DNA of 64,000 bases from Kryptolebias marmoratus (taxonomy: Eukaryota > Chordata > Actinopteri > Cyprinodontiformes > Rivulidae), in NCBI RefSeq assembly GCF_001649575.2, contig NC_051430.1, positions 19,340,296 through 19,404,295 on the forward strand. Direction: 5' to 3'. Positions within the stretch are counted from its first letter, which is position 1, and the number at the start of each line of letters is the position of its first letter. Below, piece by piece: positions 13,780 through 44,116 of the stretch. Under the pieces are notes generated by a model. That model made no database searches, was not told the origin of the DNA, and saw nothing but the letters and a program-made list of their open reading frames with translations. The translations under genes and the position numbers were made by a program.

Positions 13780-16700
13780 TTATGGGTTTCGTTGTGGTGC
13801 TTTGAGACGGTGGGCTTCAGGTGCAGACTGCCATTTCTCCAGCTCCACACGCAGCTCCACGGTTACTGGTTCCAGTTGGACGCCTGCAGATCCGTCTCTG
13901 AGGACGTCCACGTCTCGTCTCCTGGTTTCTTTCCCTTTGCCTGCAGTGGACAACGTCAAGCAGGACTCGTGAAAATAAGCACGCAGAGAAAGGAAAAGTT
14001 TTTTCCCCCACCTTCATCTTGTTTTTGTTTTTTTGTTTTTTTTATTATTATGCCCTGAAATTTAGAATTCAGGTGTGGAACGTAATGAAACTTCTAAAAA
14101 CAATCTTTACAGACTGCATTTATAATAGACTTTTTATTTTAATTAACAGCAGAAGTTGTGGTGTTTGACCTTTTGAAGGGACTGTGTCCTTCGTCGATTT
14201 ACTGCTGTCTCCTCTCTGCTTTGGTTCCTTGTCTTCCTTCTTTTCTTCTTTAGTTTTCTTTCCAAGATCCTTAAAATGTGAATTAAAAACAGAAAACGTG
14301 TCAATGTAACCGTTACGTTCAGGTGGGTGGACTACGTATTGACCATTACATCTACACAGCCTCTAATCGTACCTTTTGACTTGTTCGTTCAGCTTCCTCC
14401 ACATATTCTGCGTTCAAAGGACCGAAGTCGCAGAGGACGTTGACCTTCTGACCTCCTTGGACCAGGCTTTGCAGTGGGACGTGTGCAGAGCTGAGGGTTC
14501 TTCTGATGGGGGCGTCCTGGACCAGATCTGGGACAGATTTTCTCTTTTTGTCTTTAGGTTTGTCTCGAGTGGAAGCTGGTTTAGCTGCAGACTGAAGAAG
14601 AAGAAGAAGACTGGACTTATTAAACTGGATGAAGCTTATCTGCCAGAGCAGGGAGCTTAAAGAATAATCTTCATTATTGTTTCTATTCAGCTGCTGTCTT
14701 TAATTTAAGAACTTCACCACCAATCCCTGACATAATATGATGTCTAAAGCAGAAATTAGTTTTCAGTGAGTAATGGACAAATGCTTTTACGACACTTTGG
14801 AAAGAAAAAGTTCAAAGTTTCCTGCTAATCAGCAGGGTCATGAACTCAGTGTTGCGTGTCTTCATTTTGTAATTTTGTGGGAAATAAATGATAAACTCAC
14901 TTCTTCCTTCTTCCCTTTCTTCCTTTTTTCAGGGCGGCTCGGTTTCACCACCGGAACGTCTTCAGACGCTGCAGGCCACCACAGGATCTAAAATATCAAA
15001 TGCCGAAGCGGAAGGTTCACCTCGCTTTTTTTCCTCCTTCGCGTCAGAAATCCCCCACCTACCACACCTTTAATTTCCTGTACCTTTTCCTCCACCAGCC
15101 TGAGATAAAGTCCTTGATTCAGAAACTTCTTCAAGTCCCCCAGAGAACTAACAGCGAAGGCCTGCGCGTCGCTGAAGTCCATGAACTCTGACCACGACAG
15201 TTTTGATGTGCTGTGTTGTGACACTATGGAGAAATGGAAAAGTGGAGGGAAAAAGAAATGAACACAAAGTATAAGGATGGTGTTTAACACCTGATAACAT
15301 CTGACAGAGGATCAGCCTCGTCATCCCTCCTCGACTGCTTTTCCGAGAAAGCATGCTGACACAGCACTGATAAGAAAAAACTCCTCCCCAGTTCTGCAGA
15401 ATATATTACTCTTTAAAGATTCACTATTTTAAGGTTACGTCACATTATCACAGTTTCCCACTTCCTGCTTGCTCACTGAAATCCTGTTGTGTAATAATTT
15501 GGGCCTGGAGTTGGTTGCATCTTAGATGATTCAGTTATTCCTACAGCGTTCAGTTCTGGCGTAGGTTTCATCAGAAGTGATGGTGGAAACTCCAGTTTCT
15601 GGTCTGGACGCCTCTCCTTCACCATTCGCTTGTTGGTCGGCTTCGCTCGAGCCGTCCTCTGTCCCACGAGTCGTGGACTCTGTGTCAGGCTGGGACTCAC
15701 CGTCCAGTTTCTGTGAGCAGCACAACAACAACAACAACAACATAAAAAATAGGATTTTAAAAATATGAAGTGGATTTCTCTGCAGATGTGCTTCATCATT
15801 TATCTGTGTAGTGATTCTATTTGTGGTTTGGCTGTGAAATTCACACATAAAAAAGCTTTTTTTATGGTCCAGTTTCTAATTTGAACTTACTCTTTACATG
15901 AAAACTAAATCCACTGGTTATTATTGTCTGTGTTTGTTTGTGATTTGACCCTTTGGCCAATAATTTGGTAATTAGTTTAGACAAATTTCAGTGACCGTTT
16001 TTACTTGGAAACATAAAATAATCGTTGTGGTTAAAAAAGTTGTTTTCATACCAGCTAATTAAAAAAACAAAAGTTTATAATAAGGTAATATTACCGAGTT
16101 TTAAGATTCAGATGGCTTTTGACATCCTTGTTGGGGTTAGGATCACATTAAAAGACATACTGTACAAAGATTTCATTGGAAATACATGCAATTTATTTTC
16201 TATTTTTGCAGAGCTGTGACAAAGAAATAACCTTGATTTGAAACAATTACTTCCCAGCTCATCTAAACAACAGAATACATTATAGTAATTAATATTTTTT
16301 ATTAAGCACATGATTATTGAGCATTATTTAAGACAGACTTAAAATGTCAACACAAAATTCACTTATTTTTTTTGTTTTTAAAATTAGAAAGACATATTGA
16401 GGGGAACAAACAAGTAAAAATGGGCAAACTCTTTTTCTAATTAAATAAACAACATATGATGATGTTAATTTAGTAAGCACAATGAGACATAATGCCAATC
16501 AAACACATTTACGGTTGAGTCATACTCGGAACTGGCACTTTGATGATGCACATATGTATGAGAATTGAAAGTGTAAGAAGACTACATCACCGGGTTATCA
16601 GGTGTAGAATGACTAAGGAACTGGTACGTGATGAAATAGCTGTAGGTAATGAGTGGAAAGTCAGGAGCTTTTTTATTCACACCCATCGAATGGTCTGGGA

Positions 16701-19700
16701 TTCCCCTCAAACGGCTCAGATTCACTGTGACTGAAGCTACATCCACAATCAGATCTGTACAAACAAACAAAAAATAACCCTAATATTAAAAAAAAGCCCA
16801 CTTTATATGCAAACAATGCACACGTGGCGAAAGGAGCCCACGTTTGCAGATATTCTACTGGACAGGTCAGTGTACATTCTCACCGCTCATCGAGGCCAAG
16901 CCTCTGAAACAATGCCTTTCCTCAGCAGAGATCCACGAGGTGTCTAAACAGGCGAGCTGTGGGAGGCTGTCCACAGTGAAGCCTGGATACGACGGTGCCA
17001 GGGTGAACGGGTTGCCCTCCAGCAACAGTGTCTTAAGGCACGACAGAGTGCTCAAAGCGCCCAGCAGGGCCCGCTGGTCCAGAAACTCACAGTCGCTGAG
17101 GTCCAAACACACCAGCTGAGGCCTGAGGTCAGAAGAAGACAAAGATTATGCAAAACAGCTTCATCATAGGCATCAACAAAAAGCATAAAAACTTAGTTCA
17201 TATGTGTAATCTGTTATTATTGTAATGGTCACTTATTACTCTGAAAAACACAACTAACAAAGCAGTAAAAAAAAAAGTACAAAGCAGTTTTAACAATCAT
17301 ATGATATGATATGATATGATATGATATGATATGATATGATATGATATGATATGATATGATATGATATGATATGATATGATATGATACTGTATATCACTCA
17401 ATACAATCCTACACAATACAATATGATACAACATCATATAATACAATATAATATGATGCAATCCAATGTGATAGAACACAATATGGTATGATATTGTATA
17501 TTATACGACATGTAAAAGTATATCACACAACACAATATGGTATGACACAACACGACACAATGAGTTTCAATACGATATGAAACAATACAATACAATATAA
17601 TATAAATGACTTTATTTGCCCCATCTGATGAATTTTGTTATCTTATGCTGGACAATTTGAGCTCGATCAGTACAAATGTGTCCATCACCTTCAGTAGAAA
17701 CCACTTGCGCTTCTTTTGTAATATCAGTAAACAGTATGCTGAGATTTTGTGTCAGCCTGAACTCTGTACTGGCATCTAAACCACACAAATGTGTCTGTGA
17801 GTGCTTTATGTGGGATCAAAAGTTTTTCACTTGGCATTAGCTTCTGCGCTCACCACTGACTGAGCACTTTGTGTGTCAGTGGGTGTCACCACTGAAAACT
17901 GCTGTCAAATCAGAAAAAACCTACAGAGAAGCATCCTGGCGTGGTTGGGTATCACCGTCTGGCCTTACATCCAACTACAAAGCCTGTGACTGTCACTGAG
18001 CCCTTATTTGACCTGATTTTGGGTTACCTCTTTAAAAACCCAACAGCTTCCTGTGTGTGTGCGCGTTTGTGCGCGTTTGTGTGTGTTTGTGTGTGTTTGT
18101 GCGAACTAACCAGTGTCTTCCTGTAAGATGAAGTATGTCTTTATGGGAACCCAGACTGTTTGAGCTGAGGCCGAGATACTGCAGATGGGGAGGCGGACGC
18201 TTTGTGAGTCCATTTAGAGAAGATAACCGGTTTGCACGTAAATCCAAAACCTTCAAAAGACACAATTTCATACTTAGTTAGTCCTCAACATGTTGCAACA
18301 TTAGCTTTAATGCTTCCACCTAAAAGCTAACAGCTTCAGATATTAATTTGCGTCTCATTAGACCATGCCACAGGCAGGTAGTTCACCCTAATATGAATCG
18401 CTAACAAGAAATTTGATAGTTTCCTGCTCTGCATGATGAGCTGTAAATGAGTCTTTAGTAACATGTTGAAACAGCTGAAACTTCTCCTGATCTGATAAAG
18501 TGCAGAAAGCTGTTGCATCACTCTGATGCAGCCGAATGACTCACCTTTAGAGTACTGGGGAGATTCTCTGCAGGGATTTCTGAGATTACATTAGCACTCA
18601 GCACCAGTTCCTCCAGTCTGGAGAACCTCAGCAGGCCTTCGTCAATCACAGATACCTGAAAGCAACCCAAATATATCATCAAAGGTACATCACTGCAGAT
18701 TTATGTAATTTGTTGTTTCACGGAAAGGCAGTTTGGCCAGTAGGGCCCCTCAGACTAAGAGAGGCATCCAGAAAACCTTAAATTTATTGTATACTTTGGA
18801 CGTCATAATTTGTGTACACAGTTCAGGGTTTAGGGTGTGCCATGACCAAATAAAGACTGCTCCTAGGGGCTATAAAAATAATTTAGGCTGGGTTGTTTTA
18901 CTGCAATGCAACAGGAAGCATGAATCACACCAACAAGTACATGGACAATTACAGTGTATACTTTATTTAAGTTTTTTATTAATGTTAAAGTTCCCAATTA
19001 GGTCAGTAATTATTTCAGCTAACACTAGGAGCAGAAACTGTGACTATACTGATAATAAAAAGCTTATTAAACAATCCTCACTTCAGTTGTGTTGTAGGAA
19101 TCCTAAATGCACTAAAGTTCAAATTCATGAGGATCATTTTTACCACATTACTGTTTCACGGAGCTTTAATTCTATTTACTACAAAAGTAGAAGATGTGCA
19201 GGTTAGGAGCCCCTGTGTCTGCCGCTTATTGCATCAAGATAAGGATTTTGATTAAGGGTTTCAAAATGTACCAACTACATATCAGTGCAACAGCTTCAAA
19301 AGTAAATAAGAACTAAAAAAAACATCATTTCACAAGAACATTTGATTACTATCAAAGTTTACTATTATAACCTCATTCTAAAACAAAATTCAGGGACCTG
19401 AAAAAATCGTGACTGGAGATTTGAAACAAGGAAACATCAGATGAAGATCAAATCTGAGTCCTAATCTGTTGGTAAGAAATACAACCAAATCAATCAATAT
19501 CTGTCTGTCTGAAAATGAGATAAACACACAAATATAACAAACAAATCAAATGTTAAAGTAGAATTTTTTTTCTGATTAGTTAAATAATTGCACTTGATTT
19601 TAAATTAAACTTAAGAAGAAAAACATTAATTTTGAGGTGGCGCACCTGTTAATTTTCAGGTAAATTATTTTAGGAACTGATTGGAAATATATTAAGAGTG

Positions 19701-20259
19701 TGAACAAGTGTAATGAAAACTATTCACGCAGGTTTTTTCTTTTTAAACCAAATCCTCCAGAACAGTTTGAGTTGAGAACAAGCGAGCGGCTGGAGTCAAA
19801 CTTCAAGCTTTTGGATGTTAGTCGTGTTCACTCACATCTTTTCCAAGGATACGAAGAGTAGTGAAGTAATTATAAATGAAGTTTGCGTTCAGCTGCTGCG
19901 GTTCGAGCACACCCAGCCGTCTCAGAGCTGAAGCGTCAGGACTCCACTGTTCATCACGGCGTCTCCATGGAGACCGAGGACAGCTCAGCAGGTCCAGGAG
20001 GACATCTCTCGACTCTGTTCCTGCTCCCTCTGCACTGTCTTCTGTACTTCTCTGAGAGCAGAACAAATGTGTTTGTCATATTTTATTATTTTTAAAAGTA
20101 CTTCGTGCAGCAGCGTGAGCCATTTCAACTAAAATTCTGTTTCATTTGAAGCAAATGTAGCTGAAAACTCACCCAGGTGCCGTTTCCGCAGGGAAAATCA
20201 GTCAGACAAAGGTGTCGGATCTGCTTCTCCAACACAGCAGAAAGTGTTTTTGAGCTCAT
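13780..20259 (-). CDS. lrrc43: LRRC43, leucine-rich repeat-containing protein 43, 609 aa
   Basis: Twelve exons on the minus strand, listed 5' to 3': 20173-20259, 19836-20051, 18545-18655, 18111-18250, 16884-17122, 16591-16754, 15545-15710, 15084-15223, 14901-14987, 14373-14591, 14170-14269, 13780-13940. All phases agree. The start is the only ATG before [16 protein letters not shown], which matches the family N-terminus (LCLxxFPCG). Leucine-rich repeats fill about residues 105-265, closed by an LRR-cap-like stretch ([20 protein letters not shown], then [12 protein letters not shown]). Then come the [11 protein letters not shown] segment, an acidic linker (exon 15545-15710), the LVEEKILWWP motif across two exons, a lysine-rich spacer, and a C-terminal [20 protein letters not shown] motif. 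Human LRRC43 is 656 aa with the same order. Function is poorly known; cilia-linked expression is inferred from the upstream X-box. Confidence 0.95.
15711..16590 (-). other. lrrc43 intron
   Basis: AT-rich intron with an ACA trinucleotide tract near 15721-15740. No nested gene recognised. Confidence 0.7.
17301..17385 (+). repeat. (ATGAT)n pentanucleotide microsatellite with decayed tail
   Basis: Seventeen perfect ATGAT units in an lrrc43 intron (17123-18110). Degenerate relatives of the unit (ATACA, ATATG variants) continue to about 17600. The long minus-strand reading frame here is only the repeat. Confidence 0.97.
18050..18104 (+). repeat. imperfect GT-rich simple repeat
   Basis: TGTGTGTGCGCGTTTGTG-type tract in an lrrc43 intron, directly beside the donor of the exon 18111-18250. 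Confidence 0.85.
18656..19835 (-). other. lrrc43 intron
   Basis: Intron of 1,180 bases. A 157-codon plus-strand frame at 18733-19206 has no recognisable family, Kozak context or splice partner, and is treated as chance. Confidence 0.65.
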
Positions 20260-20340
20260 AGCTGTTAAGATAATATACTGTATGACGATATATCACATAA
20301 AGTAAAGAGACGAAGCTACAGCAGCTGATCATCTGATATT

Positions 20341-20370
20341 TGTTTACACTTTTACCTGTTGCCAGGCAAC
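20341..20370 (-). promoter_or_regulatory. lrrc43: RFX X-box and forkhead site upstream of lrrc43
   Basis: GTTGCCAGGCAAC at 20358-20370 is a perfect palindromic X-box (6-1-6) about 100 bases before the lrrc43 ATG. A TGTTTAC forkhead (FOXJ1-type) motif is at 20341-20347. Both are hallmarks of motile-cilia gene promoters; binding is inferred. Confidence 0.7.
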
Positions 20371-20543
20371 ACCTGGGGATTCCTTCAGGACTGCAGTGAA
20401 ACAGTTTGTGCTCAAAAACAGTGAAATAGTGTCCAACCTGCTTTGAAATGATGAAAAATCACTGAAGTTATGGAAATTTGATGTTAGAGGAAACAGAAGA
20501 AAATTAATAGGATAAAATTTGGGCCTGGAGCATCGGTGTAGAG

Positions 20544-20757
20544 GAGTGGTGTCCAGTCCTGGTCCTTGAGGGCCACCATCCTGCATGTTTTACGTATTTC
20601 TCTGCTCCAATACACCTGATTTGAATGAATGGGTGATTTACAGGCTTCTGCAGAACATGAAGAGGTGATTTAACCACTGAATCAGGTGTGTTGGAGCAGA
20701 GAAACAAGGAAAACATGCAGGATAGTGGCCCTCGAGGACCAGGATTGGAGACCCCTG
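20544..20757. mobile_element. hAT-type MITE with 8-bp target-site duplication
   Basis: Fold-back element of 214 bases. Its ends are about 50-bp terminal inverted repeats beginning GAGTGGTGTCCAGTCCTGG and (reverse complement) CAGGGGTCTCCAATCCTGG. It is flanked by identical GTGTAGAG direct repeats at 20536-20543 and 20758-20765. CAGGGG-type ends with 8-bp duplications are the hAT signature. It has no coding capacity and lies under 300 bases upstream of the lrrc43 start. Confidence 0.88.
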
Positions 20758-21258
20758 GTGTAGAGCTTCATGTTGACAGCAGATTGAAACAGAAATATCA
20801 TACATTTAACGTACATGTAAAACCAGAATGCAAGGATCTGCGAAACATTTCCACAAAAAAAGATAAAGTGACTGCTTTCCCATCAAACGATTACTTGAGT
20901 TAAAAGTCGACAAAACATTAAGAAATAGGGAAACAAAGGAGCAGAAAAGTTTTAAAACCGTTTTAAAACAAAGTTGGTGGTTTTGTGTTTCATATGTTCT
21001 TGCTTCAAACAGCCTACGCACCTCATTGTGTTTTTTGTTTCACAATGCATAAAATCTTGCTCTACCTGAATGGTGCCTTCATAAATGTTTCCTGTGCCGC
21101 CAGCGGTATTTTAGAGCCGCACTCTCAGAAATGTTGGCTTTTAAACTGGCGTCTGACAACAAACTGGATAGTTTTTGGCAGAAGTAAGGTTCACAACATC
21201 TATAAGGGTTTCAAATTTTTTGTTATTCGACCACAAGGCAGATTTTTCGCAGTACATC

Positions 21259-21367
21259 CTGTCTGGCCTGGGAACAGGGAGGAGCTGGAGAATATCACCG
21301 GGGAGAGGGACGTCTGGGACCTTTAACATGACCATGGGTAAGCAGAAGGATGGATGGATGGATGGAT
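21259..21367 (+). mobile_element. RTE/Rex3-like LINE 3' end fragment
   Basis: Contains the conserved 3' phrase of fish RTE elements (ctggcctgggaac, then gaggagctggagaa, then gacgtctgggac) followed by a (GATG)n tail at about 21351-21367. Truncated; no reverse transcriptase left. Confidence 0.7.
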
Positions 21368-21807
21368 ACAAACAGATTTCCACAGGACTGAGTCATTCCG
21401 AAATGAGCTTCAGCTCAAAGAAAACAGCTTTTTCTGATCTTTTGTAATCATAGTTGTCATCTTTGCACAGTAATGTCTGAATTTGAATTTGTGGCTGCAG
21501 GAGTGAACTGTGTTCATGAACAATTAAAGAATTGTTTTAATTTTTTTTATAGCCTGAAACCTGAAGATCACAGATATTTAACACTGATGTTTTTTAGCCA
21601 TGCTGTCATTATTTAATTATGAACTGCAGGTTTTTTGTTTCACTTGTTTTGCCAACCAGAAATTCTAAACACGTTGCCTGTTCCCCATATTGTTATTTCC
21701 CACATCATGTTCATTATCAGCACACCTAGATCCTCTATTCCTTTATCCTCTGATCACCACCTGCAGTATTTATACTCTAGTATTACATGTGACATAAATG
21801 TAAAACT

Positions 21808-22205
21808 AAACAGAACACAATGAGCTGCAAATCTCATAAACCATGTTTTATTCACAATGGAATATAGTAAACATATTAAATGTTGGAACTAGGAAATTGT
21901 ACCATTTTCTGGAAAATAAAGGTGAAAAAGTAAACTTAGGTGGTTTTGTGTGAGCAGGGGCAACAAAAGGCTGCAAAAGTAAGTTGTACAAATGAAAAAA
22001 CAGTCGGAGAATTGACCTGTTGCCAATAAATTAATTAGGTGAATTGGCAACAGGTCAGTAAGGGGACAGGGTATAAAAACAGCATTTTAGAGAAGTAAAG
22101 ATGGGCAGAGGGTATCCAGTCTGGTCAGAGCTCAAAGGACGAGGCTGCTCGTGATCTTTTGGCTCTCAGGTGGAACTTCCACCAATCACTGTCTGTAAAC
22201 ACAGT
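21808..22205 (+). mobile_element. remnant of a common fish DNA-transposon-type repeat
   Basis: Word order (aacacaatgagctgcaaatc, gaacta, aggggcaacaaaaggctgc, aattggcaacaggtcagta, ggtataaaaacagc) resembles a repeat I have seen widely in teleosts. Family assignment is uncertain; no transposase frame remains. Confidence 0.45.
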
Positions 22206-23208
22206 CCACTGTTCACATTTTTGACAATGTTTAGCTGTAATTAGTTATTTCAAGGCCATGTGACACCATTAATGTGTGCAGGCTTTGGTCCTAAAAATAA
22301 AACAAGGCAGCTTCGTAAACCTGGTCCTTCAGTTCCCAGCAACAAAAGGAGCAGCGACACTTGGTCTAGAATGTATAGAATTTATAGTTTAGTGTTTTGC
22401 TTTTAATGTCATTTTTTTCAATATACTGTGTATATAGCATTCCAGCATTTTAAAAGAAGGGGTTTTATAAACTAATTTTCTTCAGTGTTTGGATTCTGAT
22501 GGTTTAAATGCACAAAACTAATGAAAATGACAGACATACACACAGTTTTGGGTAATTTTTTGTTTCTTTTGAAATTGAAAAACTGAGTCAAGTATACTAA
22601 CTAGTATTATGACTCTTCAAGATAAATCAAAGGCAGATATCTTGTGCTGTGTTATCCAAATAAAGCAGAAAAGCTAAAGATAGATAAACAGTAACTGACG
22701 TTAATTGCTCTTGTATTACTAGGAAATTTATGATTGTATAATGTAGATAGAGTATACACAGTACATTTATACCCTGAAAACCCCAAATTGGGCATTTTTA
22801 ATGTATATATTAGGCTTTATGGAAACAAGAATCACGGTGACTAAACACAAAAGGGTCTGACTTGTATATAAATCAAAAAAGGGAGTAATGCTAAACCAAC
22901 TACGGTGCATTATGTAACAACTTCTCAAAACTTTAGAAGCATTACAACAATAAGTGAACAATCTCTCAACATGTCTGAGTTCCACACTGTGTTTCAAGCA
23001 TTTTACCAAACAGTTTCAGTCTTGAGATGCCATCGATACCTCTGTGGCAGTTTGCACAGCCTCCACACAACCAACCACTGTGGTAAATGCTGCCCTACAA
23101 CTGCAAAAAAGAAACATTTACAAAGAGATTGTTTGGACGATAATGCCACAGTGGCGTCATCAACCAGCTGATGGCATGCAGAAAAAAAAATCCCACGTAC
23201 TGATAGCC

Positions 23209-23247
23209 TATATAAGCAGTTAGTGCCAGTACATGAGCATTGAGTCA
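23209..23247 (+). promoter_or_regulatory. TATA box and AP-1 site of cytokine-like gene A
   Basis: TATATAAG at 23209-23216 lies 58 bases before the ATG, leaving a short 5'UTR. A TGAGTCA AP-1 consensus sits at 23241-23247. A focused TATA promoter fits an inducible gene. Confidence 0.6.
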
Positions 23248-23273
23248 GCAAAACCCAGGAAACAAATCACACC

Positions 23274-24749
23274 ATGTGTCTGCGAAAAGGTAAGGTTCTG
23301 CTCAGGAGGAGCACTTAACGCTGAGGACTGTTTTAAAATTTAACAAAAAGGTTTAATTTTGTTGTTTTTCTTTTCAAAATTATTGTCCTTTCTCCTCAGT
23401 ATTATCTTATTGAATCTACTTAGACGTCTATGAGGCTTCAGTTCACTTGTTACGCAGATAACAGCCTCATATTTTTGTATTTTTGTTTGCAGAGTTTCTG
23501 CTTTTCTTTACCGCTGTGATCTACATGGGCCTCCTGGTCGATATAGTCCAACCAATACCGCCGAGGGATCTGAGGATCCTTAACATGTCTTTGAATAATC
23601 TAAAAATGGCGGAAAACCAATGTGTAAGTAAGCTCACAAAAAGTATATATAAAGTGTACAGAACTTTGTGACAGTTTTAGGTTTTAGTTTAGCCCAATCT
23701 TTTATTATATTAAATACTTCTCCAGGCTTTTTGAAGGTCTTTCATTGGACTTTAGCAGGTGTTTTCACTCATTTTCAGTCCATCTCTTGTATCTACACTA
23801 TGACAGCATGAGATCAGCCTGAGCTTAAAAACTGAGGAAAGTGAACAAATGAGGATGAAGGACAAAAAGTCAAGCCTAAAAAAACCATCTACAGTAGACA
23901 GGGCAGCTGTGGATCAGTGGTTAGAGCAGTTGTCCTCCAATGAGATAGCTGGAGGTTTGATTCCACCAGTATGCCATGTGTTGAAGTGTCCTTGGGCAAA
24001 ACACTGAACCCCTCAATACCTCCAAGGTGCTACACTGATCTATGAATGTAATCTAAAGCACTTGCTTGACTCTATTGAAGGATTTATTCAGATTAGCTGT
24101 GTAAAGTTCTTTGTAGATGGGTGAATGAGGACAATGAAGCTCTGAGTAACCTGGTTGGATAGAACAGCACTATATAGGTACAGTTTATTTAGATGAAGAG
24201 TATCTGAAAATCATGTCTTCATGAAAAAATCCAGCAGATATCTGAGAGATTCATCATCGCTCAGTTGATCATTGACTGTATGCCAAATCCTCTTTGAGAA
24301 TCGCCTTTTTGTGCTAGTTTCCTCACAGTTTTGTGTCCCAGCATTTGCTTTTATGATAATTGCTCCTGTTTCCTCCACAGGTCCATCAGCTCTTTGGGGA
24401 AGAACCGAACGCCTACAGTGCTGATACTTTAGAGCCCCTTGTTGGAATAACTTTTCCTGTGGGAAACACTACTGATCCTAAAACCCAGGAAACCATGTTT
24501 GCCATCAACGACTACCTCGAATGCCATCTGCCAAAAATAATCAAGACCGTCGTTCTGAATGCCTCTGAGATCCTCAGCAACACTAAGGCTTTTCAGATTC
24601 AGTTCAAAGCTTTTGCAGAAAAGACATTTTCAACAGAGACAAAATGCAACGACGAAAAGTTGGAAAAGTTGGGGGATTATGCTAAGAAGATATTTGTCCT
24701 CAGGATCATTTACTTCTCCAGGAAATGGACGGAAGCGTTCATCAGCTGA
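23274..24749 (+). CDS. candidate secreted type I cytokine A, 171 aa (IL31-locus position)
   Basis: Three exons: 23274-23289, 23493-23623, 24381-24749; intron phases 1 and 0. The first exon gives only five codons, as in LIF/OSM-class cytokine genes. Residues about 6-25 are a hydrophobic signal peptide with likely cleavage near VQP. The mature chain is alpha-helical in character, with cysteines 49, 97 and 138 and N-glycosylation sequons at N36, N78 and N109. The C-terminal helix (KLGDYAKKIFVLRIIYF) is amphipathic and reminiscent of helix D of LIF-type cytokines. The 3'UTR holds a strong AU-rich element. It lies between lrrc43 and mlxip, opposite in orientation to both, as IL31 does in mammals. 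I do not recognise the protein directly. Alternatives are fish M17, another LIF/CNTF-like member, or an unrelated helical secreted protein. Confidence 0.75.
23901..24192 (+). mobile_element. tRNA-derived fish SINE in intron 2 of gene A
   Basis: Begins gggcagctgtggatcagtgg (A-box region) with a B-box GGTTTGATTCC at 23954-23964. It continues with the usual body (gaagtgtccttgggcaaaac, actgaacccc) and ends in the tail agcactatataggtacagtt. A widespread percomorph SINE type. Confidence 0.85.
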
Positions 24750-24768
24750 ATCATACGTCACTGAAGAA

Positions 24769-24833
24769 TATTTATTTATTTATCTACCTATTTATTTATT
24801 CATCTATTTATTTATTTATCTATTTATGTATTT
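24769..24833 (+). promoter_or_regulatory. class II AU-rich element in the 3'UTR of gene A
   Basis: Nine or so ATTTA pentamers, several overlapping as TTATTTATT nonamers, start 20 bases after the stop codon. Such elements confer rapid decay on cytokine mRNAs. Confidence 0.85.
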
Positions 24834-24969
24834 GCTGAGTAGTAACAGTCTCTATTTAATGTTGTTTTTATACTAAGTGATGGTTTAGATGTAACAATGT
24901 TTTCTGTTACTCATTTCTGACTGGTGGTGGTTGCCTTCAGCTCGACTGTTGTTAATCTACCATCGCAGC

Positions 24970-24975
24970 AATAAA
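24970..24975 (+). terminator. polyadenylation signal of gene A
   Basis: AATAAA 221 bases after the stop codon, downstream of the AU-rich element. Confidence 0.75.
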
Positions 24976-26021
24976 AACAGTCAATTCAACCTAAACATGG
25001 TTTGGTTTCAAAGCTGCTCTGTGCAATGTTTGATTGTCCAGCAGAAAAAAAAAAAGTAAGGTGTCTTTATGGACACTTGAATATTTTAACCATAATGATT
25101 CAGACTTGATGTTAACTTCAAACAAACTTAAGCTTTTAGACTGCGATTAGAAGTTTTGAAATCTGTTTAAATTAAAGATAAAGGAAAAAATAGATTCATC
25201 TATGACATCTCTTCAGGAATTTCCCATCAAATCCAGCCGTACTGTAGATGTAGCTCATAATAATGGCCGCCCTTTCTCCGACCGCTCGGTAAAAAGGGTC
25301 TGTAGCCGGTGAGCCGGGTCGTACAGTTTGGACATTCAGGTCTTTACGCTGCTGTTCAGGTTTTTTGTTGGCGTTTCTCAGACTTTCACATTAACAGGAT
25401 AATTAGCACTACTTTTCCTGTTGGTGGTTTTGATGTTTTCACTGACTGATGTGGGTTCTTTCCAGGTACTCAAGGTTTCCTCCTACAGTCCAAAAACACC
25501 TGTTAGATTAACTGGAGACTCTAAATTACCCTTAGGTGTAAATGCTTTGACCCTGCAGCGAACTGACGACCTGTCCTGGATGTACCCCCACCTGTCGCTC
25601 ACCAACCACTGGAGAGAGGCACAAGCCCCACTTGACCCTGAACAAGATTGACAGGTACAGAAAAGAGTCAAGTCTATGTAACATGAAACATAGGCAACAA
25701 ACTCAAATACAAGGATCACAGAAAACAAACAACCACATCCTGACAGTAGGCCCCATTACATTCCTTTTTTCAGAAAAAGACCCAATTTAATCATCTTCAT
25801 ATCTTTATACTGATGGTCTTTAGACTGATATTAGACAGAAAGATAGAAAACACCCTTTATTAACCACAACATTTTGAACAATTGAAGTTAATTTGCATTT
25901 AATCTGATTGAACGGGGGTGCAGTTTATCTGAAACTCCAAAGAGTAAAACTGAGTCAAGGGCAGTTTTTCCTGTGACAGTCATACGCAGAGGAAAGTGTA
26001 ATTGATTTTTATCTCAAGAGG
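24976..26021. other. intergenic interval between cytokine-like genes A and B
   Basis: Apart from the repeat fragment at 25468-25645, no gene is visible in this spacer. Confidence 0.6.
25468..25645 (+). repeat. old interspersed repeat between genes A and B
   Basis: Matches the pattern of a very common fish repeat: tcctacagtccaaaaacacc, then taactggagactctaaatta, then ctgacgacctgtcctggatg and taccccc. Decayed; class (SINE or LINE 3' part) unclear. Confidence 0.55.
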
Positions 26022-26028
26022 TTTAAAA
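26022..26028 (+). promoter_or_regulatory. TATA-like element of gene B
   Basis: TTTAAAA 74 bases before the ATG, similar in spacing to the TATA box of gene A. Weak evidence alone. Confidence 0.4.
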
Positions 26029-26101
26029 GGGATCTTTAAAAGATGAATGACAGAAAAGCATCACATCAGAACTCTGCTGTGGACTGAAGACTCCTGCTGT
26101 C

Positions 26102-27264
26102 ATGGATTTCCGTGCTGGTAAGGATCTTGTTTGGGCTGTGAAACACTGAGGCTCTTCCATGCTGGTTACAGATCATGAGCAGTCTCTCAGTGCATGTGTC
26201 CCTTCAGTTCTAATTATTATCTTGTGTGTGTTTGCTCTTGTCACCGCTGTAGGTCTTATCTTGGTGTGCACACTTTTTGCACGAGCATCCTGCAAGCCTG
26301 TCAGTGATGAAGCAAAAGACGAGGCCTTGACCTCCACCATCGAATCCTTGATGAAGGCGATACGGAGCGCGCTGCACCACCTCGTAAGTCTTTTTATGCT
26401 TAGTTTGAGTATCAAACTTTAATGTGTATGTATTTTTTTAATTAAGAAAACTTAGCATTAACTGTTGACCTTAAATACAATGTATATTTAACAACCGTTA
26501 GAAGATCTTGTAAACTTTAAAAACAGATGATAAATGAGCGTTCTCACCTTTTGTTTTTGTTAATTTTATGATAACAAAACGTGATAAAGAGCATGTCTAG
26601 AGGTCGACCAATAAGTTTTTTTATGGCCGATGCAGTTTTTCAGAAATCCAGTCAGCCGCAGGCTGATAAACACCTCTAATTTTATTTTACGCTTTGGACT
26701 ATATGTATAGCAATAATTGTTGACCTTGAATAACATGTATATTTAACAACCTTTAGAAGATCTTGTACACTTTAAAAACAGATGATAAAAGAGCGTTCTC
26801 ACTTAAAAACAACAAACTGAGGAAGCTGGTTTTCTTTTCGTTTTCCTAATTATGTTTGCACACGTTTATCTCTAAGCATTGCACATCATATGAATTTATT
26901 ATGATCTCAAATAAGCAGTTGACAATATTTTTGTGTTTCCCCTCAGTCTGCCCCGGAGCTGCTTCCCAACACCTCCTGCAGCTCCCTGAACATGACGGAG
27001 CAGCTCGGACCCGAGCAGCAGCCTCTCGCCGCTCACATCTCCACCTTCCGCTGCTACATGCAGGAGTTGTCTGAGCTCATCCCCGAGCTGTCAAAGGGGC
27101 TCAAGACAAATGTGCAGTTACTGCAGAACATGGAGAACCTACAGGGCAACCAGACGGTCCCCACCACCTGCAGCCTGCCCAGCTTCGAGCAGCAACTGGA
27201 TTTTTATGTTTACGCCAAATGCTTTCTGCAACTTGTGCAGAAGAGACTGACCAAGTCAAAGTAA
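26102..27264 (+). CDS. candidate secreted type I cytokine B, 169 aa (tandem neighbour of A)
   Basis: Three exons: 26102-26117, 26208-26383, 26947-27264, with the same architecture as gene A (five-codon exon 1, phase 1 then phase 0, final exon largest). Residues 6-29 form a long hydrophobic leader. The mature chain probably begins near C34. It has cysteines at 34, 75, 100, 139 and 156, sequons at N72, N79 and N132, and amphipathic helices (TSTIESLMKAIRSALHHL; LAAHISTFRCYMQELSELI; LDFYVYAKCFLQLVQKRL). Some AUUUA motifs follow the stop. Sequence similarity to gene A is low by eye, so common origin is inferred from position and exon phases. The leader could instead act as a signal anchor. Members of the IL31/M17/LIF group are the leading candidates; a search is needed to name it. 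Confidence 0.72.
26464..26802 (+). repeat. interspersed repeat with flanking duplication in intron 2 of gene B
   Basis: A core at about 26595-26690 (agaggtcgaccaataag, then ggccgatgcag, then ggctgataa) is bracketed by two close copies of one segment (26464-26547 and 26714-26802; shared words aacaacc, tagaagatcttgta, aaaacagatgataaa). A reverse-oriented relative lies at about 39765-40075. Probably a non-autonomous DNA transposon family. Confidence 0.6.
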
Positions 27265-27365
27265 AGATGTTGTGTTGTTGCTGACTATTTATTTTTAACA
27301 ACCATAAATTATATTTATATTTAAGTTATTTTTTCTACTAAATATTCATTCAGAAACTGATATTT

Positions 27366-27371
27366 AATAAA
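27366..27371 (+). terminator. polyadenylation signal of gene B
   Basis: AATAAA about 100 bases after the stop codon, in an A/T-rich 3'UTR with scattered ATTTA motifs (27282-27330). Confidence 0.7.
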
Positions 27372-27407
27372 AATTAAATGATAAAACGTTGAGTTTGTTC
27401 TTGTGTG

Positions 27408-29505: not shown

Positions 29506-32500
29506 TCAGATGACCTTCGGGTCACCGGTGTGCGTGACGGCCTCGACGGCTTCTTTAGGCAGCAGGAAGGGATCGGTCAGAATGGACGTGGTGGTGGACA
29601 GCTGACGGAGCGTACTCAAAACCACTGAGAAAACAAATGAAAATAGAATAAACATGAATGAATTTAGCTCACACAGCAGATAATCTCTATTCAGCAATCG
29701 AAGAAATAAAAGGTTACGATGTAGACGGATATTTACTGCAACAAAAACACTTCAAAGTGCTGCTAAGTGGCAGACAAATTCCTTATAAATATATTTTTTA
29801 TTCACTAAACCTGCATCGAAAGTTTTTTATCCACATTCACAGCAGAGCAGAAAGTCTGTTCCACAACATGAGGAATAATGAGCGTATTTTTTTTTTTCTT
29901 GTAGTTTCCTAAAACAGCTTCCTCCTTCATCTGAAAGTCAGACACATAGAAGGGCTAATCTGTGGGCTGAAAAACAGACGTAAATGCAAAACATAAATTA
30001 CTAAAAGGTTTCCACGGAGAGGACGGAGAGTTTGGGAAACCCCTTTCACATCATACAGAAACTAACTTCTCTCATATTGCATTAATAAACACAACAACAC
30101 AACCGTAAAGTCAGAAAAAATGTTTTGTTAGAAAAAGCAAACTCACTTAGGGGACAAATTATTTTAAATTACTTCTCTATGGTTACGTTTATCTCCAGTA
30201 TTGCTATTTTGTAACTTATGTTTAGCTGACACTATAAGTTTCCCACCCATTATCGATAAAGGCTGCCCTGACCTAGATTTGAACCAATGACATTAAAAAC
30301 GCTTTTAGCTTTTCTAAAATACACAAAAACTCTGAATGTTAAGATGTATACCAGTGGGGTCCAAACTTTGTCATATGTGGGCCAAAATCCTCAAGTTGAA
30401 AGTACCAGTTAGTATAAATTACTAAAAGGTATAACTTTTATTTTATTTGTGACTTTTGTTTTCTTTTTAAACTCTCATAAACAATGAAAAGACACAAACA
30501 AAAGTGTACTGACTTAGGTGGAAAAAATCCAAATAATCTAAATTGTTGTAGATCCAAACGGAGAAAAACCGTTGCAAACATTTATCTTTAAAAAGAAAAA
30601 CAAACAAACATTAAATTCTTTACATTTGTTGGGTTTAATGCTTTTGTTTTCTTGTGTTTGGAAAGTACGGTGGCCCTGAAGTGCAAAGCACATTAACAAA
30701 TCACTAAGCACAAGTAGAAATTTAAAAACACAACATATTTAAAAACACAACGACCATAATCTACAGGAAGAGGTAGGTATCAGTGGGAAACACGAGACAT
30801 CTCTGATTGGACAACGGCACCGTTTGGCTTTTGGATCAGAAGTTATTCTGTTTGTAGCACGTTTTTGAAATGTTCCCGGTGACCCAAACGTAAGACTTTT
30901 TAAATCCATTTTTAAACCTAAAAATTATACAAAAACTATACTTAAAACAAGCCAAAAGGTGTCCATTTGCATCAGCCTCTCTAAATTATACCACTTTTAA
31001 TTTGTAGTTTTGGGCCGCACAAAATCCCTCTGAGGGCCGCAAATAGCCCACGGGTTGAACTTTGGAGACCCCAGATGTGTAAAATGACTAATGGACATTT
31101 AAGGGCAGATTTACAATTAATAATTTACTAGCTGGACAAATTGAATAAATGAATTTAAGAAGATAATGTCAATAATTTAAAACAAATGTGTCATTTTCCT
31201 TTGATCTAATGACACAAACTCAAAGCTGAATAATTTCCTTTTTGCAAAAATGAAAAGCCCTTCCCCCCCATAAGCTGCAAGTCTACAACCGGATGATGTC
31301 AATCTTGTCATCATCAACTTTTATCTGCCACCAAGCGTAATGCTAATGGTCAGGAACAAAAATATATTACTTTGACGAGTGAGAAGGGTGGAAAAGCTTT
31401 CAGTAAAGCCTTATTAACATGACTGGAGCGACCCGATCTGCTTAAAAACCCCTGTTGTGTCATGGTAACTGAGTAAAATCCAGGAAAACACAAACAGAGA
31501 TAGCCGAAGAGTCAACGGTGAAAATCCCTGCAACTGGAACAAAGTCTTGTCGCGATGACTGCAAACGAGCACTCACACACACGGCGTGGGCAGATTTTAA
31601 CTGCACAGACATTTTAATGTAAAACAGCCACACTGAGTGAATTAATCACACCGCATTGAGTTGAAAACAAGTGATATTATTTTACTTACTGGGTCTGAGG
31701 ACAGGGAGGGAGCAATGATTCTCGAGCCACTGCAGCGTGGTCTGATACAGCTCTGCTTTGCTCGTAGTTGACACCATCCCATTGAACGACTCAAAGAGGG
31801 GCCTGATAATGATGCTGAACTAAAACAAAGCAATAAGGTCAAGGAAGATTTAACATCAGAGAGAGACGGACATGCAGCCCTGCAATACAAATAACTAAGC
31901 AGCAAGTTCTGCACGCATTAATGCCCAGAAAAAGAAGAAAAAGAGCTGAGATTCAACAGCTTTGTCCTCTACAGAAACACTGGAGTTGCATCTTTTTAAG
32001 TCCAGTGATTGAACCTTTTTAGTGCAAGAAAGGTGCTGAATAATGCAGAAAGTCCATCATTCAGTCTATGCAGCATATTAAGGGTAGGGATCGAGACAAG
32101 CTCAAAAACAGCAGGAACACCGTTTGTAATAATGCCCCGTGATGCAAACAGGATGCTTAAAAAGCAGCTGCTAACACTGAAACGATGAAGGGGCGTTATA
32201 AACAAACATCACTTCTGATAAATGGCTTTAGTCCAGTCAAGAACTGATGCTAAGGATTCAGTGATCCTCATCAAGATTTGAGATCAGAGACTCGCTACAA
32301 ACCAGGATTAAAACTCCCTCAGTAGAAAACGTGTCCATCTTCAGTGCTTCATTAAAACAGGAGAGAGAGAGTGATTAAAAGATGACTTGAAAACAGGGCA
32401 AACTCAACAGACAGAGAGGAGAACAGCAGCAGTGTTGGCACTGTGGTCATCAGAACGCCAATCACTCTCACATATTTCGGACATGTCGTAAAAACTCATT

Positions 32501-35500
32501 TTTACTCTTTGGCATTTAATTGATGTATTGTTTTGTGCTTAGTTTTATTATTTGTGTTATCGTTCTTGTACAGCACTTTGGTGCAGTTTTATACCTGTTT
32601 TTAAAGTGCTATATAAATAAATTTGACATTGACAGGTCCAAAGTTAGCACCATTCTGGGACAGCGTCTGTCAAACTATTAGGAGGATATTGGGTTATGTC
32701 ATTCCTAGGGATCCCAAAATGGACTCATTTTTTTCACGACGGTGGTCACAGGCACAAATTACTCACTGCCACAAATGTAGTGACACCCCTCTGTCACAAG
32801 ATCTGGCAGGAGAGTTTCTCTGCTGCAAAGGGGGAAAAAAACCAACAAAAAAACCCCAGCAAAAACACAGAAACAGTTTGCGGATTTCCTTGGCAACAAT
32901 ACATGATGCAACAAATGTTCAGCGCCTGCGGGCAGCGCCGCTGATTATCTGACCCCGCGATCTAAACTTCAAAAAGGTATCTCATCAGAGCTGTGAGAAC
33001 AGAAGCACATCAAGAGATCTACTGTGGCTACAAGGATTACTGGTGATGGACGAACTGAGTCACTCCTGAAGTGACTCACTAAGTGAAGAGTAGACGGTGC
33101 TTTGCACAAGAGGCACCTTTCCGCAGAGCGAGGTAGGGGACTCCTTCCTGAAAAGCTTGATAAACATCAAAATACTTTTTTTAAAGATAAAACGTAGCTA
33201 ATAACAATGTAACAGCAAAGCTTTCTGTTTGTGAGTGAATGTGTATAATCTTGACTACATCCCACATCACTATTATTTGAATTATCCATGTTTTTAATAA
33301 ACAGCAGAAAGAGTAGGGTTTGTCTTGTGGAAGGATACGATCCAGAACTTCCAGTTCTGAAGAGTGCGGGTCTTTACGTACTCGTTGAACTTCTCCTGCA
33401 TGTGGTCGGAGCGATTCCGCTTCATCGGCACGCCGGTCGCAGGAAGCTGCTCCTGACACAAGCTGCGATTAAACGGCGAGGGCAGACACAAAGAGAAAAT
33501 GCTTTAACGAGTCCGGCTTTTGCACACGTTCATGAACATGTATTGTGTTAAAGTTTTCAATCACTCCTAATGTCTTTATACTTTGCTTCTGAGAGGTCAG
33601 GCTGTTTCGTAATCTTTTAAAAGTAATAATTCTGGCTTTCTGATGGTCTTTCTAAAGAGTTCTTTGGGACTTTGGCTGCTTTAAATGTATTCTGCACATC
33701 AAATTTTGACCTACTGTGTATATACTGCTTTTAGTTTTATTGTGATTACATGAGCAGTTGTAACATAAGCAATTTCCCTTTGAAATTAATAAAGCTAATC
33801 TGATTTTAATTGGCTGTCTAGTCCCTGACAGCATATTGTGCAGCGTGGAGTTAAAATGAACAATAAACAAATGAAGAACAAAAGTGTCAGGCCTAAAAAA
33901 AAACAAAAAACAGAACCGCCTCTGAAAGTCGTTAAGAAATAGGAGAAAAGATCCTGCTATGACCTGAAACAAGACACGAGAGATGCATCATCCTTCTGCT
34001 GATCAACTGTACGGCAAGTTTTTAGATATTTGCTCTTGTTTGTGCTAAAGTACTATTTTATGTGTCAAACTGTGTTATCTTTGGTACTTTTGTTAGCTTC
34101 AACTAAAAGATATAAACATAAAATACAGGAAAATCTGAAAAGCTAAATATAAAAGTAAGGGATGAGTCAGGACTTTTGCAGAGTGCAGTATATGATGTTT
34201 TGGATTACCTGATAGAAGTGTTGAGCTCCTCTATCTCCTCTCGTAGTCTCCTGACCTCTTCCTGTATCTGATGCCTTTCCTGCTGGAGCTTCCCAATGTG
34301 CTCCACTGCCTTCTGCAGCGTGACTGCATTCGTAATCTGAAGGAAGAAAGTCAAGGCAGAAAACACAAACCTTGGAATAAGCACCACGTAATCCCAGTAA
34401 CATAAGATTTATATCAGCAGACCTACGTTCGATTGGGACTTCAGAGTGGGAACAAGGTTGCCGAGCGTCTTAAAGCCAATATTTATGTTGCATCGTCTCT
34501 TTTGTTCAGCAGATATGTGGGTCGTCCTCCGGTTCTGTCACACACCAGTGAAAATATCGGAGTTATTAATGAGTGTTTCGTATATGAGAGAGAAAAAAAA
34601 AGATGTTGCTGAACATGAAGGGTGGAGTTTATTCATTCGAACCTGTGAAGAGCTAATAAAAACTGTAACACAAACCTGATTGTGTTCGTTCTTTACCAGA
34701 GCTGAGCTGCTGCTGATTATTGCCTGGGGACTGGGAACTTGATCTAATCCACAAGGTGAGCCTTGACTGGACCCTGGCTGACTGTGAACTGCAAAGAGAA
34801 GAAGCACAAAAGACTTCTGTTCTTAGGAAGAAGCAAGCTTAGAGTCTTGAGAAGCTGTCGTCTTGGAGAGAAATCTCACCGGCACCAGGGGAGGTGTCTT
34901 TCTGACTTTTTTGGCCAGTAGAAAATAACTTCTCTTCTAGGACAGTGGGCTGAGGAGACTTCTGTGTATGAGGCAATCCAGAGGCCTGAAATACAAGGAT
35001 AGTTATTAGGAACTAATAACTGATCATCTTTTTCACAACTGGCTGATTTGCAGAATAAAATGAAGTCATACCGCTGCAAAATGGGATGCAGTAATGACCA
35101 CACCGGTGGTAGGTGGGGATGTACCAAATACAGCACTGGGATGACCTGGGAAAGGGGCTGAGAGGATTTGTGTTCATTCATATTTTATCAAAAACAAATC
35201 ATAGATCAGTTGTCACTTTTGACAGATTCATTGGTACAAAACGTCAGCTTTGAGAAAATGTAAATCAGACCAAGTAATTTGTAAAAATCGACTGTTTTAA
35301 TAAAAATAAAAGCTGAATAGCCGAATAAGAAAAGCTTGAGTGCCACCTTGTGAAAGTTAGATTAAAACAGCATACTTCTACTCTCAGATCAATCAACAAA
35401 CAAGTTTTTAAGAACGCCGCTGACCTGGGAAGATGAGGTGGGAAGAAGGGAGGGTGTTAGCCGGAGCAAACCGTTGCACAGGACGGACTTTGCTGGAAGT

Positions 35501-38500
35501 GTTTGCCTGAAATGAGCGAGGCAGAACGAAAGTCTGAGGCTGCTGCTTGTGAGACGCAGGCAGCGGAGCCAGAGGCTGGAGCTGGGATGGAGGAGCTGAG
35601 ATGTGGCTGAAGGCGGTGGCCGTGTCGCTGGGGGTGACGGAAGAGGGCGCGGTGTGTGTAATCACAGTGGGAGGTACGGCCTCCTCCAGCACCGAGGTGT
35701 TGTCCAAGGGCGAGGCGACCATGGGTGCTGCTGGGGCCAAATTCTGACCCGGAAGGCACGGGACCAGGGGATCTTGGGATAACGCTTGAGAGACAGAGGA
35801 AACTACCGGCTGATTGCTGGACGCCACCTCTGCACCAAACAGGGCCGCGTAGTTCTGTACAAATGCAGCTCCATCGCCATCTGCCTGAGTGGTCTGACTG
35901 ACCATGGGCGCAGGAAGGGGCAGCGGGCCTGCAGGGGGTATGTGGTTGGCCGAGAGCTGCAAGGAGGACATTAATGGGGTCTGGTGAGGGATAAAAGAGT
36001 GAAAACAGTCATTTATTACTTTCTTACAGCAGATTATGATAGAGAAGTTCATGTTAGTTGGAAACTTTGTCTGATTTTTTTAGTTATGTTTATAACGGTA
36101 AACAGGCTGCTTTAGCCAGAGGCAGAATTATTTCCCATTTAATTCATTAGTGGTTAATTAACTTAACTTTAACAGTGTTGACTTGGGTTAGAGTTAGCCT
36201 AATGTTTACAGCTAAAGTCACTAGTTTTTCTTGTTATTTTTAAATTAAAGATGAGCAGAAACAAAAAAACAACCAAGCTGCATTAATATTGGTTTTTTTT
36301 AAGTTCCAAGTGATAAAACAAAACATCATAACTAAAAAAAGATGATAGAATATCTCGTATTGCTATGTATGACCTGTCAGACATCTGATTTGGTCCCAAG
36401 CTTGATCCGATTCAAAATTTTAAGTTTGAAGCCAAACAGAATTGGTTCCCACCCCAAAAACAAAACAGAAAATCTTGTTTCACTTATCTCATAAATTTCA
36501 AATAAGGAAAATAAACTGATACAAACAAACAAGGAATATTGTCCAAAACTGTTATTAAAAATCTGACCTATAAATGTGAATATTTTAAGTGCTTGTAATG
36601 CTATAATAATTGCTATAATAATAATAATATTATTATAATGCCAGAACGTTTTCTGTTTATTCTTTTCTCAATATAATGAAGGTGAAGACAACACTTTGGT
36701 TTAGACTTTGAGGTGTAGTAATGTCAGACAAGGATGTACTGTAATGCTTTTAGGGGCCAACTCCAAAAACCCATACATTAATATTTTCACCAAATTACTG
36801 CTGAAATATTTAAGGAAATAAACAACTATGTTGAAGCACCGATTGTGACGGTGGAGTGTGTTAGGGGCTGAGGTTGGGTCGGTGTTTACCTGCGACTGAG
36901 AGCTGCTGCTGGGTTGAGGGGTGACAGATGATGCAGTGGGGGAAACAGAGGGGAAGACAGGCTGACGGAGGCTGTGAAATAAGTCTGGAACAAGAGTCTC
37001 TATGTTAGCTGGAGGTTAGTAAAACCACACTACTTCTTATGTTAGGCTAAGCCGACTGCGTTACCAGAATGTGTGCTTGATTCCTGTACAGTGTGCACTA
37101 TTAGTTTGAGCTTTATTACTGCTGCTGTAGCTGTGCGTGCTGCCTCATCGCTACCTTGTAGTGGATCGAAGGAGTCCATGAAGTCCAGGTTGGGTTGTAA
37201 GGGGATGAGTCCTGGTTGGATCATGTCTGCATTCCCTGCGTGAGCTGTGGACGGTGGAGGCAGAGGCAGGGTGAGCGGGGGGGGGAGGAACGTGGACGGT
37301 AACGAGCAGAAAGCAAACGCTCCGATCAAAGGTTTCTCACCGATTTCCCTTGGGTTGGGCCAGGCTATGGGCTGGTGTGAGGCCAGCGTGGAGAACAAGG
37401 TGTCTGAAAACTCTGACATCAGAACGTCCATGTCAAAGAGGGGGTCCATCTCCATCGGGGCGGGGATTTCATTGTGCTTACGAGGCATGCGGCGCGACGC
37501 GGTCTCTTCATCCTGATAAAAGGAAGCACGGAGCATGTCTGGAGAGACTTCCCCAAACAGAGAAAACTGCTCCTCTGGCCCCTTTAAATGTCCAAAATGC
37601 AACCACCAAGCCAGTTAATGTCACACAAGCATGCAGTGTGGTGCACAATCAACAAGTGATGGCACTAATATGACACATGCACTGATCCTAAACTAATATT
37701 TCTCCATTTCTTTACACAGTAATGTGCAAACGGTTTAAGCAGTTGCCTAGATTCTAATTTATTGCAGAATATCAAAAGTGATAGATCAGACTGGTCCAAT
37801 TAATTAACTTTAAGTGTTTGAAACTTTTGCACAGTGCTGTCAGTGTGGTCCTAATGTCAGCAAATTACAAAAGCACAAGCTGTCAGAATCATCCTTTCAC
37901 ATTATAGCAACAGAGTATTTCCTATGAAGTAATATTTGGTTAGTTTCAGTGGCGTTGACACTTGACTGAATAGATGCTGATGGTACTGATCATGTTGACA
38001 TCAGAAGTGCTCCGGTGAGTTAATCAGGATGCAGTTCTTCATACCTTGAGCAAGCTGGAGAGGTCTTCATCTTTGTGCTTCTGTAGCTACAAATGAATGA
38101 GCACTATGTTATATTATGCTGTTTTATATTTAAAATAGGGCAAAAAAACAAGACAAAGCTGCAGAATTTACAGTATTGCCTTGAAGTTAATTAAAGTATT
38201 AGTGTATCTTTAAAAAAAAACAATACAATACCCTTTTCTTAAAATATGTTCTCCATTTGTGATATTCTTTTATGACAATTTCAATTCTTCTTTTCCAGCC
38301 TTTCCCATCTGTAGCAATAGCCTGTAGAAGAACGAGAAACAGGAACTACTGAAATGTGCCAAGAGAAGAGCTGAAGGGAAGGAAGTGGCAAGAAAAACAG
38401 CAAACTAAACAAATTCTTTAGGAGACTGAACTTAAAATGACCTGTGGGATTTTGGCTACCAAAACTGTTAAAGAAATCTGTTGGCTGGTACTTCTCATGG

Positions 38501-43863: not shown

Positions 43864-44116
43864 AAGGGCAACTTTCCGAACAAACAGCTAACGTTAGCCA
43901 CCGAGCTAGGACAATAACACAACCGTCCCTCTCATTAGTCCGGTTGTTAAAGTCGGCCAACTCCGTGCCATGTAGTCAGAGTCCTCGCTTCAGGCATGCT
44001 AAAGTTTGCTTCTGGCCATCAGCGGTCCAAGCTAAAATGTTATCTTGTTAGATAGCTGACGTAGCTACGAAGCAGCTGACAAAAAACTGCTCCTCTCACC
44101 GAAGCAGGAAGCGTCT

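Follow-up and report, generated by a model that had tools for sequence, protein, structure and literature searches.

A tandem pair of candidate IL-6-type cytokine genes in the lrrc43–mlxip interval of Kryptolebias marmoratus, the position of mammalian IL31

Two small genes, here G1 and G2, lie in tandem on the plus strand between lrrc43 and mlxip in the fish Kryptolebias marmoratus. Their products are probably secreted helical cytokines of the IL-6 type, and the pair is probably the fish counterpart of IL31 in mammals, a reading to which we assign a probability of about one-half. The genes fall within a window of 64,000 nucleotides (nt) (contig NC_051430.1, or C1, positions 19,340,296–19,404,295) in a genome of 680.65 Mb, and positions given without a contig are those of the window. 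Both flanking genes are on the minus strand, and the pair is therefore antiparallel to each of them. A previous sequence-only reading of this DNA had claimed two small genes antisense to both neighbors, and that claim holds, as the frames are intact with splice sites in place and the flanks were matched. Overall, position and gene structure make a good case that the IL31 locus of this fish holds a pair of cytokine genes.

With respect to gene structure, G1 (23274–24749) consists of three exons encoding 171 amino acids (aa). Exon 1 (23274–23289) ends at a GTAAGG donor, exon 2 (23493–23623) carries the leader and likely helix A, and exon 3 (24381–24749; 122 codons and a stop) likely supplies helices B, C, and D. 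G2 (26102–27264) is built the same way from exon 1 (26102–26117), exon 2 (26253–26383), and exon 3 (26947–27264; 105 codons and a stop). Both genes share a 16-nt first exon ending in phase 1, a 131-nt second exon ending in phase 0, and donors reading GTAAGG or GTAAGT. Across the IL-6-type family, a short phase-1 exon 1 is followed by a phase-0 leader exon 2 with the remainder in exon 3, and G1 and G2 fit this layout. An acceptor before 26208 is also usable in G2; it would add 45 nt, extending exon 2 to 176 nt, the leader to >30 residues, and the product to 169 aa. The 154-aa model obtained with the acceptor before 26253 is likelier because exon 2 then has the same length as in G1, and this acceptor also shortens the hydrophobic leader. 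Accordingly, of the product sizes originally put forward, the 171 aa of G1 stand, whereas the 169 aa of G2 arise from the alternative acceptor. Each product has the claimed sequons (three apiece) and a hydrophobic leader, which may serve as a signal peptide. Separately, intron 2 of G2 contains a 95-nt stretch in two copies (26453–26547 and 26708–26802) that are 92% identical.

In terms of location, the same reading had placed mammalian IL31 in this interval and in this orientation. In mammals, IL31 runs antiparallel to the two genes beside it, and G1 and G2 likewise lie between MLXIP and LRRC43 on the opposite strand. The interval is borne out by the horse, for which PMC6402180 gives the order PSMD9, WDR66, BCL7A, MLXIP, IL31, LRRC43, B3GNT4, DIABLO, CLIP1. 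The order in the window is CLIP1, LRRC43, the G1/G2 pair, MLXIP, CFAP251 (WDR66), a rabgef1-like gene, and a psmd9-like gene, which agrees with the horse IL31 neighborhood in a comparison that leaves out BCL7A, B3GNT4, and DIABLO.

The 3′ ends of both genes are rich in AU motifs. The 3′ untranslated region (UTR) of G1 up to the poly-A signal (24750–24975, plus strand, 226 nt) holds an AU-rich element with 10 ATTTA and 9 TATTTAT motifs; it is the densest ATTTA site of the window, and none of 1000 dinucleotide shuffles matched it. Because part of this cluster (24770–24840) is a short tandem repeat, it may have originated by slippage. The corresponding stretch of G2 (27265–27375, plus strand) has four ATTTA motifs in 111 nt, a number reached by 2% of 1000 shuffles. 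Upstream of the start codons, at about 65 and 80 nt, candidate TATA-like boxes were noted by reading the sequence.

The exon architecture was gauged against chance with a scan that required a hydrophobic leader, an exon 1 of 13–37 nt ending in phase 1, an exon 2 of 100–200 nt ending in phase 0, and a last exon of 85–200 codons. It returned four models with two exon-3 ends, those of G1 and G2, on the plus strand of the window, none on the minus strand, and none in either the reversed or the complemented control sequence; as the thresholds were chosen after the genes had been seen, these counts gauge specificity rather than a blind discovery rate. Codon usage does not decide on the coding status of either gene. 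The score of G1 is neutral (0.001). Exon 3 of G2 scores 0.244 and exceeds each of the 120 non-coding open reading frames (ORFs) of 40 aa or more, which peak at 0.230; two wrong frames of this exon, however, reach 0.293 and 0.276, and the value therefore reflects base composition. The predicted amphipathic helices were upheld in part: two of eight segments reached p < 0.05, both in G2, and the remainder, including all of G1, did not.

Exon 3 of G1 is conserved in three database relatives, P0001, P0002, and P0003, with identities of 68, 43, and 39%, respectively (P0001, E value 9.5e-39). P0002 is a partial record labeled "hypothetical protein" from the goodeid Ilyodon furcidens; it starts at the predicted start of G1 exon 3, and a relative of G1 is thus already public without a name. 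No relative of G2 was found in the sequences searched. Structure models spanning exon 3 alone were of low confidence, with predicted local distance difference test (pLDDT) values of 53 for G1 (helices at 33–48, 50–57, 62–82, and 99–121) and 62 for G2 (three long helices at 27–44, 46–66, and 80–103), and fold searches with these models returned nothing informative.

Direct comparison with known cytokines did not place the pair in the IL-31 family. Neither gene matched the IL31 profile PF15209, for which human IL-31 served as positive control (E value 2.5e-57), and for this reason G1 and G2 are not filed as IL-31 family members. Pairwise comparison with human, dog, and mouse IL-31 gave no match consistent across species; Pfam, PDB, and profile tests of the two genes also gave nothing consistent, the weak Pfam rows being unrelated families under the cut-off. 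Sequence thus offers no case for IL-31, and with one genome such a case was beyond reach. The fish IL31-equivalent pair originally proposed is supported in part, by interval and strand but not by sequence. These results would also fit IL-6/G-CSF-type cytokines that either originated within ray-finned fish or were relocated to the interval, sharing a position with IL31 rather than descent, and weak profile leanings of G1 toward IL-6 and LIF-OSM and of G2 toward G-CSF point the same way, as do exon phases identical to those of the IL-6-family gene clcf1. We nonetheless consider this origin rather unlikely. It would require that, in a genome of 680 Mb, the genes came to lie in precisely this interval and on this strand by coincidence, and the missing signal is weak evidence in view of the fact that IL-31 itself shows no signal to LIF-OSM (Z −1.3/−1.4). 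Most of the sequence tests even fail to pick up IL-31 as a relative of LIF or OSM, and their power is accordingly low.

That G1 and G2 are small secreted helical proteins other than cytokines is consistent with the lack of any cytokine-family match, yet the phases of the exons, the AU-rich 3′ ends, and the position in the IL31 interval agree in direction, which makes such an identity improbable. It is very doubtful that G1 alone works and that G2 is decayed or non-coding: the lack of a G2 relative and a codon score not specific to the right frame speak for decay, but G2 retains intact splice sites, an open exon of 105 codons, AUUUA motifs, and the exon lengths and phases of G1. The suggestion that this locus houses the fish M17/LIF-like group, with M17 and a tandem copy as G1 and G2, has become highly implausible because the fish LIF-type gene sits on another contig (C14:17338584–17339063, minus strand). 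That gene matches LIF_OSM (PF01291) over the cut-off, whereas neither G1 nor G2 matches this profile. LIF and OSM carry an FxxK motif where helix D begins; by reading, the position holds FQQK in the LIF-type gene but KCNDEKLEKL in G1 and SFEQQL in G2, neither of which has the motif. Human LIF lies near HORMAD2. Within C14:17333406–17348323, the fish LIF-type gene is flanked by an EF-hand gene and a kinase gene, which we take to be tescalcin-like and TAO-kinase-like.

With IL31 counterparts as the favored reading, a TATA-type promoter would drive brief bursts of transcription of G1 and G2, and their AU-rich mRNAs would then be rapidly destroyed. The products would be secreted and fold into a four-helix bundle of the up-up-down-down kind typical of IL-6-type cytokines, with helix A from exon 2 and helices B–D from exon 3, and the bundle would pair two receptor chains of the gp130 family to trigger JAK-STAT signaling. 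IL-31 itself signals through IL31RA and OSMR; a candidate receptor for the fish pair would combine gp130 with LIFR-, OSMR-, or IL31R-type chains. A gp130-like gene is present at C14:9,391,056–9,399,559, with matches over residues 9–653 of a query taken as human gp130. In mammals IL31RA adjoins IL6ST; no second class-I receptor or IL31RA was recognized beside the gp130-like gene in C14:9,362,001–9,432,000. Published accounts of IL31R disagree. GLMR was not found in zebrafish (PMC1963337), and one elephant shark transcript is 32% identical to IL31RA but 40% to gp130 (PMC12162339); il31r is annotated in a largemouth bass transcriptome (PMC12292805), IL31RA is listed in that of Lateolabrax (PMC3091668), and IL31R is traced to lampreys or cyclostomes (PMC8226699, PMC13203501).

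As for the ligand, recent surveys describe IL31 as "found exclusively in mammals" (PMC13203501, 2026) or as having "first appeared in rodents" (PMC8226699, 2021), and a 2016 review treats IL-31 as unknown in fish (PMC4929537). In a search of the open-access literature, none of the titles, abstract openings, and passages listed named an IL31 gene from fish. Tentatively, and at somewhat less than even odds, an IL-6-type cytokine may already have occupied the lrrc43–mlxip interval in the bony-vertebrate ancestor, such that IL31 would not be a mammalian invention and the teleost tandem pair would be the missing ligands of IL31R-type receptors, unrecognized through sequence turnover. If so, the ligand found in fish at this locus would bridge the gap between a mammal-only IL31 and a receptor traced to cyclostomes or lampreys, and would date the itch/type-2 cytokine axis to early vertebrates. 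Fish immunology would gain two new candidate cytokines, and position together with exon structure could reveal cytokines that sequence searches have missed.

The limits of the neighboring genes were set by eye from ORFs. lrrc43 (14352–17145, minus strand) was seen in part, and its identity is based on one exon (16870–17145; best PDB match chain 9ijj_5C, E value 3e-15). The mlxip region (29509–43887, minus strand) contains a basic helix-loop-helix exon (34412–34537; HLH, E value 1.2e-8), and we presume the gene name from residues and gene order. The assembly has a gap in this region, visible as a run of Ns at 43299; the window contains 36 Ns. CLIP1 lies on the plus strand (zinc knuckle, E value 7.1e-18), CFAP251 was matched at 3.2e-13, and the psmd9-like exon is a weak match under the cut-off (Nas2_N, 0.0031). 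Between the latter two is the rabgef1-like gene, with a VPS9-domain exon at 55285–55599 on the plus strand (Pfam E value 5e-24; PDB Rab5 GDP/GTP exchange factor, 1.2e-34), which does not appear in the horse list as given in the available portion of PMC6402180. The stretch between lrrc43 and G1 (17146–23273) was examined for more genes via the ORF list, the architecture scan, and tblastn with G1 and G2. At 20540–20760 it contains an imperfect inverted repeat, noted by eye, that resembles a small inverted-repeat transposable element.

Among known systems, clcf1 offers a comparison within the same genome (C9:18244228–18247157; found with human CLCF1, E value 1.1e-20). Its exon 2 (152 nt) opens with the last two bases of a split codon and is in phase 0 at its end, as in G1 and G2; exon 1 was not found in the clcf1 stretch. 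Human CLCF1 presumably starts MDLRAG, which resembles the MDFRAG of G2, and there is no clear sequence match to G1 or G2 in the mature part. The last clcf1 exon (C9:18244228–18245622, minus strand) is a single open frame of 465 aa. Its two CLCF1-like parts are separated by a long stretch that keeps the frame and is either a loop that has expanded or an intron without a frameshift. Fish LIF/M17 differs from G1 and G2 in contig, profile match, and motif, and in the profile comparisons the best partner, weak in both cases, was G-CSF for G2 and IL-6 for G1. IL-31 (PF15209; PDB 22pl_A, human, and 9uk5_A, dog) occupies the same MLXIP–LRRC43 interval as a single gene in mammals, in contrast to the tandem pair in fish, and is likewise small, with 141 aa for the human chain in PDB. 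Human and dog IL-31, G1 with its three relatives, and G2 also have in common a Cys that precedes the helical stretch at the C terminus, with the helix limits of IL-31 being those we assume.
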